From IMG/VR virus record IMGVR_UViG_3300025127_000112, positions 1 to 36,314 of that record: a stretch of 36,314 bases of DNA, one strand, 5' to 3'. Below are positions 31,854 to 36,314 of this stretch, piece after piece (position 1 is the first letter of the stretch; each line of letters opens with the position of its first letter). Origin of the DNA: a virus. The translations under genes were made by a program, and so were the position numbers. Below the pieces are notes generated by a model. The model saw only the letters and a program-made list of their open reading frames with translations. It did not search any database and was not told the origin of the DNA.

Positions 31854-32016
31854 CTCTGTCTTCAATCGACATTAAATCATATCGCTCGATTGCTTTCACA
31901 TCGTCTCTAATGTATGAGTAACATTCATTACACAAATCTAAATAGTCGTCATAAGTTGTTGATTTCCTTGTAGATTCAAAATCATTTAACAACTTGTCGC
32001 AGGCTTGACATCGCAT
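31831..32016 (-). CDS. Small zinc-finger protein
   Basis: A 61-residue protein with two CxxC pairs, C3/C6 (MRCQAC) and C29/C32 (LCNECY), spaced to bind one zinc, followed by an acidic helix (RDDVKAIERYD) and SIEDRVDSEKNS. Similar short zinc proteins occur in T7-like and cyanophage genomes without a settled function. GGGG precedes ATG 32016. It overlaps the upstream DNA-binding gene by 31 bases. Confidence 0.75.
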   Translation of the reverse strand: MRCQACDKLLNDFESTRKSTTYDDYLDLCNECYSYIRDDVKAIERYDLMSIEDRVDSEKNS

Positions 32017-32276
32017 TTTTTACCCCATGCTTTGGTTATCATCCAATGCCCACAGGGTATCACACCATGCCACTCTTTGTCAAAGTCTCCGTTATGCAGA
32101 GTCCGTGACGCAACTTCAATACCATACTTGTGAGCATGATTCTTGATAAACGTAGATACAGAATGAGTAGTTCTACCTACTTCTTCAGCAATCTCTCGTA
32201 TGGTAGCGCCGTGACAGCGCATCTTACGCAACGTAGCAATCTGCGTTTCGGTCCAAAGATTCTTACGTCCACTCAT
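31986..32276 (-). CDS. GcrA/SANT-like helix-turn-helix DNA-binding protein
   Basis: A 96-residue protein. Residues 8-48 (LWTETQIATLRKMR, then HGATIREIAEEVGRTTHSV) form a Trp-led helix-turn-helix like the N-terminus of alphaproteobacterial GcrA and related Myb/SANT-type domains, which bind DNA near promoters. The C-terminal half has HGVIPCGHWMITKAWGKKC, with Cys/His possibly holding metal. GGGAG precedes ATG 32276. A phage transcription regulator is the natural reading; the target is unknown. The similarity to GcrA hints weakly at an alphaproteobacterial host. Confidence 0.65.
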   Translation of the reverse strand: MSGRKNLWTETQIATLRKMRCHGATIREIAEEVGRTTHSVSTFIKNHAHKYGIEVASRTLHNGDFDKEWHGVIPCGHWMITKAWGKKCDVKPATSC

Positions 32277-34140: not shown

Positions 34141-34773
34141 TTACTCTCCTGTTAGTACAGTTAGATGCAGACGCGATACTTCATCAGCCGATGAGAACCG
34201 CCCACGATTACACTGGTTCCACATAACTTGTTCACACCATGAGTCCCAGATCTTCTCAGTTGTTCGCGCCCCAGTAAACAGACTGACATAGTTCATCACC
34301 TTCTGTTTCTTGGTCTCTAGCTTCGCTGACTTTGAGAGGGTTACATCCGCTACATTTACCTTGTACAATCTCCTTACATTATGCACATCCATACACCCCA
34401 CACGCCCAAACATCATCTGCATGACAAAGCCCGCCTTGGCTAGTCCGAGTCCCGGCACATCAAGAAGACGCAACATCATCTCCCCATCCTTAGATTGAAC
34501 TGTGCCACCCAACTCCTTCTTGGGTGTTCTCCACAATCTTATCAAGTCGTCATACAACTCTGCACTATGCCTGTGTAGATACTTGTACGTTTCACGTTTG
34601 AACCCAAACAAATACTGTGATATCCCACCATTCTGCCTGTAATCCTCCATCATTTTGGGCCACATCCAATGCGGCATCTTGATGGTCATCACAACGGCAA
34701 TGATCCCGTCACGCATGTGCAAGTGATCCGTTTGCATATACTCATTGATTAACGGATTGTATTTTTTAAACAT
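34141..34773 (-). CDS. Helix-hairpin-helix DNA glycosylase-like protein
   Basis: A 210-residue protein. Residues 103-136 contain a helix-hairpin-helix VPGLGLAKAG (106-115) followed, at the spacing of the HhH-GPD superfamily, by an Asp in GCMDVHNVRRL (D129). In endonuclease III the hairpin reads LPGVGRKTA with catalytic Lys and the later Asp is catalytic. Here Asp is kept, while the Lys position is A112 with a Lys next door (K113). A monofunctional base-excision enzyme or a structural relative is suggested. No four-Cys iron-sulphur loop follows. The N-terminal Tyr/Trp/Met-rich helices (MPHWMWPKMMEDY) are unusual. It sits between two small early genes, the next start following its own stop by one base. 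Confidence 0.6.
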   Translation of the reverse strand: MFKKYNPLINEYMQTDHLHMRDGIIAVVMTIKMPHWMWPKMMEDYRQNGGISQYLFGFKRETYKYLHRHSAELYDDLIRLWRTPKKELGGTVQSKDGEMMLRLLDVPGLGLAKAGFVMQMMFGRVGCMDVHNVRRLYKVNVADVTLSKSAKLETKKQKVMNYVSLFTGARTTEKIWDSWCEQVMWNQCNRGRFSSADEVSRLHLTVLTGE

Positions 34774-35038: not shown

Positions 35039-35055
35039 TTTTGTATACTACAAAA
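35039..35055 (-). promoter_or_regulatory. Inverted repeat TTTTGTA-TAC-TACAAAA before gene 34774-35025
   Basis: Perfect 7-base arms around TAC. It ends 13 bases before ATG 35025, and its right arm merges with an A8 run that is the U-tract of the hairpin at 35060-35082. Same architecture as at 35422 and 36118. Candidate operator or phage-specific promoter. Confidence 0.75.
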
Positions 35056-35082: not shown

Positions 35083-35097
35083 CTGTTTAGACAAGGA

Positions 35098-35115
35098 AGA
35101 TCTAAAAAAGTTCCC
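35098..35115. repeat. 18-base repeat AGATC-N2-AAAAAGTTCCC shared with terminal repeat
   Basis: Bases 35098-35115 match 70-87 (and 36235-36252) except at the two central N positions. In both places it lies within about 50 bases of a TTTTGTA-N3-TACAAAA element. It may be a second protein-binding site or an old duplication of control sequence. Confidence 0.5.
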
Positions 35116-35117
35116 CA

Positions 35118-35297
35118 CTAAATTTCACTACACTCCTTTACATTATCCCAGTTAATCTCCTCAAGAACGCTGTCATCAAAGTACAGGTGTTTGATCACAA
35201 CCTCCTCCCCATCTTTGAAACGTATCCACAATTTGTCGCCAAACGACACCTCTGGAAATAGTTTCCTCCAGTATTCCGGTTCACACGCACACGTCAT
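35118..35297 (-). CDS. Small early protein, 59 residues
   Basis: ATG 35297 overlaps the upstream stop as ATGA. The protein MTCACEPEYWRKLFPEVSFG, then DKLWIRFKDGEEVVIKHLYF and DDSVLEEINWDNVKECSEI, has an N-terminal CxC and a later Cys, with a central two-strand motif. Just below a 60-residue cut-off. No family recognised. The short gap to the 35052-35082 terminator makes it the last gene of its small unit. Confidence 0.65.
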   Translation of the reverse strand: MTCACEPEYWRKLFPEVSFGDKLWIRFKDGEEVVIKHLYFDDSVLEEINWDNVKECSEI

Positions 35298-35401
35298 CGC
35301 TCAAATATCCACTCACAAATACCAACACAAACACCCAACAATAGTGAGACAGACCCCACTAACCCAATAACTACGAAAGCTAAATCCCAATCAATCCCCA
35401 T
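35294..35401 (-). CDS. Tiny single-pass membrane protein, 35 residues
   Basis: ATG 35401 is preferred over the adjacent ATG 35404 because AGGGGAG is then at better spacing. MGIDWDLAFVVIGLVGSVSL continues LLGVCVGICEWIFER: one clear membrane helix (about 8-29) with three acidic or polar flanks. It is the first gene after the 35422 element and is coupled to the next gene by ATGA. Small early membrane peptides can block superinfection or disturb host envelope functions; this is speculation. Confidence 0.65.
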   Translation of the reverse strand: MGIDWDLAFVVIGLVGSVSLLLGVCVGICEWIFER

Positions 35402-35421
35402 CATTCTCCCCTCATTTCAGA

Positions 35422-35438
35422 TTTTGTAGGGTACAAAA
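35422..35438 (-). promoter_or_regulatory. Inverted repeat TTTTGTA-GGG-TACAAAA before the 35401 gene
   Basis: Perfect 7-base arms around GGG. It ends about 20 bases before ATG 35401, and its A-run is the U-tract of the terminator at 35441-35468. On the minus strand the order is: end of the 209-residue gene, hairpin, U8, inverted repeat, ribosome-binding site, next gene. Confidence 0.75.
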
Positions 35439-35468
35439 AAAACCCTCTAGCGTTTCCGCCAGAGGGTT
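35435..35468 (-). terminator. Rho-independent terminator after the 209-residue early gene
   Basis: AACCCTCT (35441-35448) pairs with AGAGGGTT (35461-35468); an inner GCG/CGC pair set (50-52 with 57-59) extends the stem across one mismatch, with a four-base loop. On the minus strand eight U follow (A-run 35435-35442). It stands five bases after the stop of the early gene and ends that single-gene unit. Confidence 0.9.
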
Positions 35469-35473
35469 TCGGT

Positions 35474-36103
35474 TTAACCATTTACAACACTTGGAAAAAT
35501 CTCTGATTCCATGATGCACGTGGCTACTTCTAGTGCGATCTCTTCACCTAGCAGTACCTTGAGATTTTCAGCGATACTGCGCGGATCAGAGTCTTTGGGC
35601 ATTGTGAGGCTTATCATTTCAGACTTGCTATCTTCCGAGGTCTCAACCTCCTCAGATTCACTACCCTGCGTTGCGTTCTCAGACTGATCAGATCCGCCAT
35701 TGCCATTCGCTTCAGTCTTTAGCTTTTGAAGCTTCTTGTAGGACGTCTGTAATGACTTCTTACCGTCGATTGCTTCAATAACCATCGCCCTTTCACCTTC
35801 CACCATTGAGTGGAAAAGCCCGCGAATGTAGCTAACTCTTTGCCCGTGGTATGACTCCTCGGACTTATCGCCTCGGTTCTCTCTAAGGGCTTGAATGAAT
35901 GTATCAAGTATCTCATTCGAGAAGTGAGGTATAGCGCCTATCTGCTTTAACTTGGCTGGAAGCTTCGACAGTGTTGCCACGCCGATAAGGACCCGGAATT
36001 GGTCCAATATCTGCGCGTCCACTGTTTGAGCATCTGCAACTAGCTTCGAGAAGTTTGACGCAAAATTCGCCACGATCTGATCTTGTGATAGTAAGTTTTC
36101 CAT
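35474..36103 (-). CDS. Putative early regulator, 209 residues
   Basis: First gene of the leftward half, in a unit of its own between the 36118 element and the 35435-35468 terminator. The N-terminal domain (about 1-130) is helical. Residues about 105-127 (RAMVIEAIDGKKSLQTSYKK) resemble the AI-x2-G-x2-S-x3-AYK helix-turn-helix-like pattern of ParB/KorB-type proteins. Residues 133-162 are an acidic Ser/Glu-rich linker (GSESEEVETSEDSKSEM), and a short C-terminal domain (about 165-209) follows. GAGG lies before ATG 36103. A role as a DNA-binding switch protein is inferred from position and the weak motif; no family is recognised, and an anti-host role is equally possible. Confidence 0.75.
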   Translation of the reverse strand: MENLLSQDQIVANFASNFSKLVADAQTVDAQILDQFRVLIGVATLSKLPAKLKQIGAIPHFSNEILDTFIQALRENRGDKSEESYHGQRVSYIRGLFHSMVEGERAMVIEAIDGKKSLQTSYKKLQKLKTEANGNGGSDQSENATQGSESEEVETSEDSKSEMISLTMPKDSDPRSIAENLKVLLGEEIALEVATCIMESEIFPSVVNG

Positions 36104-36117
36104 TTTAATTACCTCTG

Positions 36118-36134
36118 TTTTGTAGAGTACAAAA
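36118..36134 (-). promoter_or_regulatory. Inverted repeat TTTTGTA-GAG-TACAAAA before the 209-residue gene
   Basis: Perfect 7-base arms around GAG, ending 14 bases before ATG 36103. On the minus strand it follows the hairpin 36193-36139 and a U8 run. If the 209-residue protein binds this sequence it would control its own gene. Confidence 0.75.
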
Positions 36135-36193
36135 AAAACGGGACCAACTACCGCGCTGTCTGTCTGTTAAATAACAGCGGGCATTCGGTCCCG
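36131..36193 (-). terminator. Large hairpin plus U8 upstream of the 209-residue gene
   Basis: CGGGACC (36139-36145) pairs with GGTCCCG (36187-36193), and inside it CGCTGT (36154-36159) with ACAGCG (36174-36179). On the minus strand eight U follow (36131-36138). It could terminate or attenuate leftward transcripts entering from the terminal repeat. The right arm lies in the repeat; the left copy differs at two paired bases, each of which would still pair as G-U in leftward RNA. Confidence 0.6.
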
Positions 36194-36314
36194 CAACGAT
36201 GCCGATTCGATTCGACATATTATTAAGACTGCCTAGATCGGAAAAAGTTCCCGTTCAATTGCTGAACGAATGTAGCTGTCTTTTGTAGGGTACAAAAAAG
36301 ATCTATGTGGGTGC
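36166..36314. repeat. Right copy of terminal direct repeat
   Basis: Right-hand partner of bases 1-149. It differs at 36177 and 36188 (G here). Both differing bases lie in the arms of the hairpin at 36139-36193, which is completed only in this copy because its other arm is at 36139-36159. Bases 24-149 of the left copy are identical to the corresponding bases here. Confidence 0.9.
36281..36297. promoter_or_regulatory. Inverted repeat TTTTGTA-GGG-TACAAAA in right terminal repeat
   Basis: Second occurrence of the 116-132 element caused by the terminal repeat. It is identical in sequence. From here leftward there is no convincing gene until 36103. Confidence 0.7.

Follow-up and report, generated by a model that had tools for sequence, protein, structure and literature searches.

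P0001, a candidate cognate regulator of palindromic early sites in a group of uncultured phages

The early control region of the phage in IMG/VR record IMGVR_UViG_3300025127_000112 carries several copies of a 17-base palindrome around an isolated gene of 209 codons, and the question raised by this locus is which protein reads these sites and with what effect on early transcription. The original prediction, made from the letters of the window (the whole analysed stretch of 36,314 nucleotides), proposed that the isolated gene controls the palindromes. In this work the protein encoded by the gene, P0001, has been compared with its positional analogues in related phages, and the distribution of palindromes has been followed in the same loci.

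The early control region

The source phage record is a 36,165-bp circle, and 149 bases are repeated at both ends of the window with two differences. The best matches of its TerL to cultured phages are below 45% identity, and the phage group is therefore known here from metagenomes only. Assignment of a host through MAG contigs was abandoned as unusable, because the three contigs available (7-10 kb, TerL 70-75% identical) belong to three different bacterial groups; sign of integration was not seen in these same contigs. Scans of 35 window proteins with PHROGs and/or Pfam gave neither an integrase nor a ParA match, and no RNA polymerase match was found among the window proteins scanned. The main features of the region are as follows (positions in the window).

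From about 0.56 kb, rightward: block of structural genes (terminase, portal, capsid, tail)
Leftward block: replication and nucleotide genes (T7-type primase-helicase, PolA, exonuclease, Gp2.5-like SSB, ribonucleotide reductase)
36281-36297 (= 116-132): palindrome TTTTGTACCCTACAAAA, in the divergent control region
36224-36251 (= 59-86), minus strand: sigma-E-like promoter GGAACTT-N15-GTCTTA, upstream of the regulator
36138-36194, minus strand: GC-rich leader hairpin followed by U8, between the sigma-E-like promoter and the regulator (from folding)
36118-36134: palindrome TTTTGTACTCTACAAAA (as read on the minus strand), a short way before the ribosome-binding site of the regulator
35474-36103, minus strand: open reading frame of the candidate regulator P0001, 209 aa, ATG start, first leftward early gene
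35705-35794, minus strand: predicted helix-turn-helix, codons 104-133 (AlphaFold helices 105-112 and 118-133, pLDDT about 93-96)
35588-35704, minus strand: acidic disordered linker, codons 134-172 (pLDDT below 50 at 139-172)
35477-35587, minus strand: small two-helix C-terminal part, codons 173-209 (helices 174-185 and 187-199, low-to-middling pLDDT)
35439-35470, minus strand: strong intrinsic terminator 3' of the regulator, 14-pair stem, its U-run continuing into the palindrome
35422-35438: palindrome TTTTGTACCCTACAAAA, immediately behind the terminator of the regulator, ahead of two small genes
35087-35114, minus strand: sigma-E-like promoter GGAACTT-N15-GTCTAA, preceding the palindrome at 35039
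35039-35055: palindrome TTTTGTAGTATACAAAA, upstream of an 84-aa gene and the remaining early operon

The palindrome TTTTGTANNNTACAAAA has four distinct exact sites; all belong to the early control region, and the rest of the window has none (116-132 and 36281-36297 are one site, since the first and last 149 bases repeat). The mean in 300 dinucleotide shuffles was 0.0 copies, and the largest 7+3+7 palindrome family in any of these shuffles had 2 copies. Each window palindrome is composed of TTTGTA half-sites with a 3-base spacer. The P0001 gene lies between the palindromes at 36118 and 35422, in agreement with its earlier description as a single-gene unit framed by copies of the element and by terminators.

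Other elements of the region deserve mention. The 121-nt leader of the regulator folds at -43.5 kcal/mol (z -5.2), and positions 36138-36224 of the minus strand, where the sigma-E-like promoter is followed by a highly stable hairpin and a run of eight U ahead of the regulator gene, could hold a small RNA of about 80 nt, reminiscent of sigma-E-driven bacterial small RNAs; Rfam matches were all far under gathering scores. Between palindromes, at 35118-35404 (minus strand), there are two small genes, one for a probable membrane peptide of 36 aa, the other for a protein of 59 aa that has similar counterparts in loci L202 and L246. A further early gene (210 aa, 34141-34773, minus strand) contains the motif VPGLG..KAGFVMQ..FGRVGC.DVHN, which by eye is like helix-hairpin-helix DNA glycosylases, and has weak homologues in Paracoccus phage ParKuw1, Roseobacter phage CRP-9 and DSS3 phages.

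The predicted protein

The AlphaFold model of P0001, built as a monomer from 26 sequences, is all-helical, with residues 60-133 in blocks of pLDDT 80-96. Helices are predicted at 63-75, 83-101, 105-112 and 118-133, followed by the disordered acidic linker and the two C-terminal helices, so that the linker and small C-terminal domain originally described are both present in the model. The structure prediction that had been proposed as a check thus yields a helix-turn-helix of DNA-binding type at 105-133, and codons 104-133 are the best-conserved region of P0001 within its clade (11-13 of 30 residues identical). This predicted element coincides with the faint ParB/KorB-like pattern that had been noticed at residues 105-127; kinship with ParB/KorB found no support in the profile searches, which returned 0 Pfam families at E<=5 (thus no HTH_ParB/KorB, HTH_3/XRE or peptidase S24) and, with a profile of the P0001 clade, 0 PDB sequences at E<=10.

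Searches for other relatives gave similar outcomes: 0 PHROGs families at E<=0.1, and 0 tblastn matches at E<=1 in 50,697 phage records, where the regulators of L246 and L206 found nothing either. In Foldseek comparisons, neither the P0001 monomer model (mean pLDDT 70; against PDB and BFVD) nor the L206-family model (against PDB) had a match at E<=0.001. The best scores in a second set of structural comparisons were Z 4.5 (5.3 Å over 108 residues) and Z 7.0 (KaiA C-terminal domain, 3.1 Å over 84 residues); KaiA and TetR-type structures were not counted as kin, these values being within the range reached by unrelated helical models, and ParB and KorB were absent from the rows of the comparison. 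Across the 26 members, Phage_int_SAM families of Pfam appeared below threshold only (PF13102 in 7, best E 0.0022; none in P0001). No description of this regulator family was found in the open-licence PMC literature.

The positional analogues of P0001 in other phages may form one family with it. A regulator model from another class has a similar helix order (4-20, 25-37, 44-60, 65-84, 86-95, 99-106, linker, 145-158, 163-177), a likeness that is not independent because the alignments overlap. When the profile of the P0001 clade was run against 1492 ORFs, other regulators ranked first (best E 3e-4), and hhalign of the TTTGTA clade against the other regulators gave a probability of 1%, which is not significant. 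As sequence homology is weak, the claim of one family rests largely on position, size and similar predicted helix order.

Covariation of regulators and palindromes

Relatives were fetched by TerL (75-91% identity) and searched de novo for repeated perfect palindromes upstream of TerL; palindrome families were found in comparable places with different sequences. The conserved neighbour (the 210-aa gene), used as query, gave 55 further loci. With profiles built from the positional analogues, regulators were recognised in 65 loci, a number that includes near-copies and five overlapping copies of the window's region; at 90% identity this set shrank to 28 unique loci. These fall into the classes GTTAAC (13), TTAA[G/T]CAT (8), TTTGTA (5) and TTTAGTCA (2), three loci in which no perfect palindrome is repeated (L120, L231, L242) having been placed in TTAA[G/T]CAT by script default after reading of their flanks by eye; strict patterns detect at least 2 TTAA[G/T]CAT sites in 7 of the 8 loci so classed. 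Even in sister phages whose TerL are 85-91% identical, the same slot holds divergent regulators with GTTAAC, TTTAGTCATGACTAAA or TTAA[G/T]CAT palindromes.

Homologues of P0001 are detectable in IMG/VR at 27-30% identity, in four further unique variants at the 90% level (L202/L203, 29%, E 3e-13; L246/L247, 28%, E 3e-11; later L258, L259 and L262). All the homologues found carry TTTGTA-type palindromes, whereas 0 of the 23 other unique regulator loci do, which favours the proposed role of P0001 as controller of these sites; homologues in phages that lack the palindromes, which would speak against that role, were not encountered among the four further variants. Their palindromes have the same half-site with a 2-base spacer and occupy matching places: around -175 to -199, at the beginning of the regulator gene and directly behind it. 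Over the 28 unique loci, class-specific sites in loci of their own and of other classes number 21 and 0 for TTTGTA, 64 and 0 for GTTAAC, 9 and 0 for TTTAGTCA, and 15 and 0 for TTAAkCAT, with 4 sites in the window and up to 7 per locus in relatives. The spacer also follows the regulator subclade (G-N-C against other spacers within GTTAAC; mostly CA against AC/AT within TTTGTA). The 27.7 kb downstream of the TerL start held no palindrome sites in five loci of other classes.

On the tree of the 28 unique regulators the classes require 3 changes, which is the minimum, compared with a mean of 13.1 for shuffled labels and with 0 of 200 shuffles as low. The trees of TerL, the 210-aa gene and the primase, from which window near-copies and short matches were dropped and in which identical sequences were counted once, show 8, 8 and 7 changes (26, 26 and 22 rows), or 8, 7 and 7 on the 28-locus subset. 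DUF3846, the 95-aa gene and the D5-like HTH gene require 11, 11 and 7, all no better than shuffled; for these trees, for the 28-locus subset and for the neighbour genes, matches that covered less than 60% of the query were left out. On the other side of the control region, the nearest gene (562-951) agrees with class in part (5 changes, shuffled 11.4), and the lysozyme-like gene at 935 comes close to doing so fully (3 against 2, shuffled 4.0), as would be expected from linkage. The regulator is the only early gene tested that combines the minimum of class changes with a large gap to shuffled labels.

Exchange of the regulator together with its nearest palindromes can be followed between L242 (TTTAATCAT class) and L246/L261 (TTTGTA class). 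Their upstream flanks are 93.7% identical over 1545 bp, up to 283 and 368 bp before the regulator, and the downstream flanks, which begin 1.7 and 2.7 kb past the regulator start, show 87.5% identity over 4957 bp; between these flanks regulator and palindromes have been replaced by those of a different class. Likewise, the window and L114 differ in palindrome class while their DUF3846 and TerL are 90% and 91% identical. Plain linkage is insufficient to account for the match, and was rejected as its sole cause, because 36 of 101 palindromes are found beyond the regulator gene at distances of more than 300 bp, some of them inside DUF3846 or the 210-aa gene, whose trees ignore class.

Some GTTAAC loci, L126, L114 and L213 among them, have palindromes in coding sequence, including one about 45 codons into the regulator gene (VNxVNL), so that the operator fixes part of the protein sequence. 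Additional palindrome types (CTTAAG-n-CTTAAG, GTTTCCTAGGAAAC, GCATAGTCTATGC) occur near TerL in distant TerL relatives (L152, L155, L164, L169, L172, L175, L188, L191, L183, L142); the regulator's place is taken by a different protein of about 192 aa in L169, L172, L188 and L191 and by a 150-aa protein in L183.

Early promoters, mode of action and implications

The reading best suited to these data, with a probability of about 0.8, is that the TTTTGTANNNTACAAAA palindromes are recognised sequence-specifically by P0001 as their cognate DNA-binding regulator. The protein would bind each half-site through the helix-turn-helix at 105-133, as a dimer, and repress the leftward early genes, its own gene included.

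The early promoters suggest how repression could be exerted. The pattern GGAAC-N16-18-GTC[ATG][ATG]A appears twice in the window, both times leftward (36251 and 35114; shuffled mean 0.3, maximum 3), and in the 28 loci 20 times in the early direction and 0 times in the opposite one. It resembles the enterobacterial sigma-E promoters, with -35 GGAACTTTT and -10 GTCAAA (PMC1804206). The pair stands upstream of the regulator in 5/5 TTTGTA, 2/2 TTTAGTCA, 6/8 TTAA[G/T]CAT and 0/13 GTTAAC loci, stray matches more than 1.6 kb away being present in one GTTAAC and one TTAA[G/T]CAT locus; sigma-E-like early promoters are seen at L202, L246, L116, L201 and others. GTTAAC phages have instead an extended -10 (TGnTATACT, one variant TGTTACACT) 47-52 bp before the post-regulator palindrome in 11 of the 11 loci having that palindrome. 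At the second early unit the sigma-E-like promoters start 56-69 bp before the palindrome in 5/5. With either promoter type, the geometry would place the beginning of the palindrome some 20-35 bp past the expected start, and for this reason a block just after initiation is favoured over competition for the promoter. P0001 at such an operator (about +20 to +35) would act as a roadblock that halts RNA polymerase just past the early promoter, helped by the neighbouring terminator; if P0001 binds as supposed, we consider this mode of repression slightly the better bet. The palindrome is more distant (65-139 bp) from the promoter of the regulator itself, and loci of the TTTGTA clade have another one 8-30 bp upstream of the -35 of this promoter; looping or double action is therefore possible there. 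The promoter motifs suggest that these phages may use the host envelope-stress sigma factor as a start signal; no description of sigma-E-driven phage early promoters was found in the open-licence PMC literature.

That same upstream palindrome of the TTTGTA clade, together with promoters lacking good sigma-70 boxes, would agree with a P0001 that binds the sites but activates early transcription, or both activates and represses. This is unlikely, as most sites are downstream of promoters, after terminators or in coding sequence, where activators rarely work, and as the extended -10 of the GTTAAC phages is a good one. It is still less probable that the palindromes are read by another protein and that P0001 matches them by linkage. 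The second HTH regulator of the region, the D5-like protein at 31986-32276 (minus strand), is recognisable as such (phrog_323, E 2.7e-9), and the regulator and nearest palindromes are physically linked; however, its gene, present in all four palindrome classes, gives a tree (13 of the 28 loci) whose 7 changes equal those of shuffled labels (7.2), on which ground it was rejected as reader, and the remote palindromes do not fit. A host factor in this role would leave four site types in near-identical phages unexplained.

Two further readings are highly improbable. Several palindromes are adjacent to ribosome-binding sites or extend over start codons, and their 3-nt loops are reminiscent of N4 virion-polymerase promoters, so RNA hairpins or N4-type hairpin promoters with an RNA-binding P0001 could be imagined. 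The predicted hairpin of the palindrome is, however, weak (-2.6 kcal/mol, z -0.17), and the RNA hairpin idea was rejected on this folding; in some classes the sites lie some 45 codons into genes or are complete palindromes that leave no loop, and the polymerase expected of an N4-type system has no match among the window proteins scanned. Just as improbable is a role of the palindromes as partition or replication sites of ParB-parS type in an extrachromosomal state, with P0001 as centromere-binding protein: the grouping of several sites near the gene of the putative binder and the faint HTH resemblance agree with it, whereas ParB/KorB and ParA profile matches are missing among the window proteins scanned and the sites lie at promoters and gene starts across the early region.

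As a repressor with cognate sites, P0001 would recall the immunity repressor of Cluster A mycobacteriophages with its operators and stoperators (PMC6550527, PMC9283540). Both systems would have one repressor gene in the early region, many copies of a short site beyond promoters, joint divergence of repressor and site between related phages (for Cluster A, PMC6550527), and a proposed block of elongation. The Cluster A sites are asymmetric and mostly one-way, and the phages temperate; here the sites are perfect palindromes, confined to the early region in the loci examined, P0001 matches no PHROG and an integrase was not found. The P0001 system would thus work like Cluster A stoperators, and it is no member of that group by sequence, site symmetry or recognised lifestyle. 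The exchange of repressor and cognate operators between similar phages is shared with lambdoid CI/Cro immunity (heteroimmune lambda and 434; PMC6550527). Unlike the lambdoid repressors, P0001 has no HTH_3/XRE or S24 profile; its operators lie downstream of promoters, there is a single divergent control gene, and no lysogeny module was recognised. KorB and ParB are alike in having an HTH in an all-helical part, an acidic linker, a small C-terminal part and several palindromic sites. P0001 differs from them in the lack of a profile match and of a recognised ParA partner among the 35 window proteins scanned; its monomer model gave no significant fold match.

The regulator and its putative operators make up an exchangeable specificity cassette, sister phages carrying other pairs. 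It is possible, if rather doubtful, that these marine phages, apparently non-temperate, use the pairs as an orthogonal repressor-operator system of immunity type. If so, each lineage would have its own cassette of regulator, promoter type and palindrome, and near-identical phages would swap such cassettes; during co-infection the resident phage would shut off the early genes of newcomers of the same type, while different types would escape; and diversification would be driven by phage-phage competition rather than by lysogeny, with the host envelope-stress sigma factor firing the early promoters at the moment of infection. This raises the question of why phages without recognised lysogeny genes should diversify an immunity-like system. 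The loci would offer a natural series of at least four regulator-operator specificities within one group of closely related uncultured phages, and a regulator protein family without recognised relatives, in which the evolution of DNA-binding specificity and heteroimmunity could be tested directly with synthetic genes and no phage culture.
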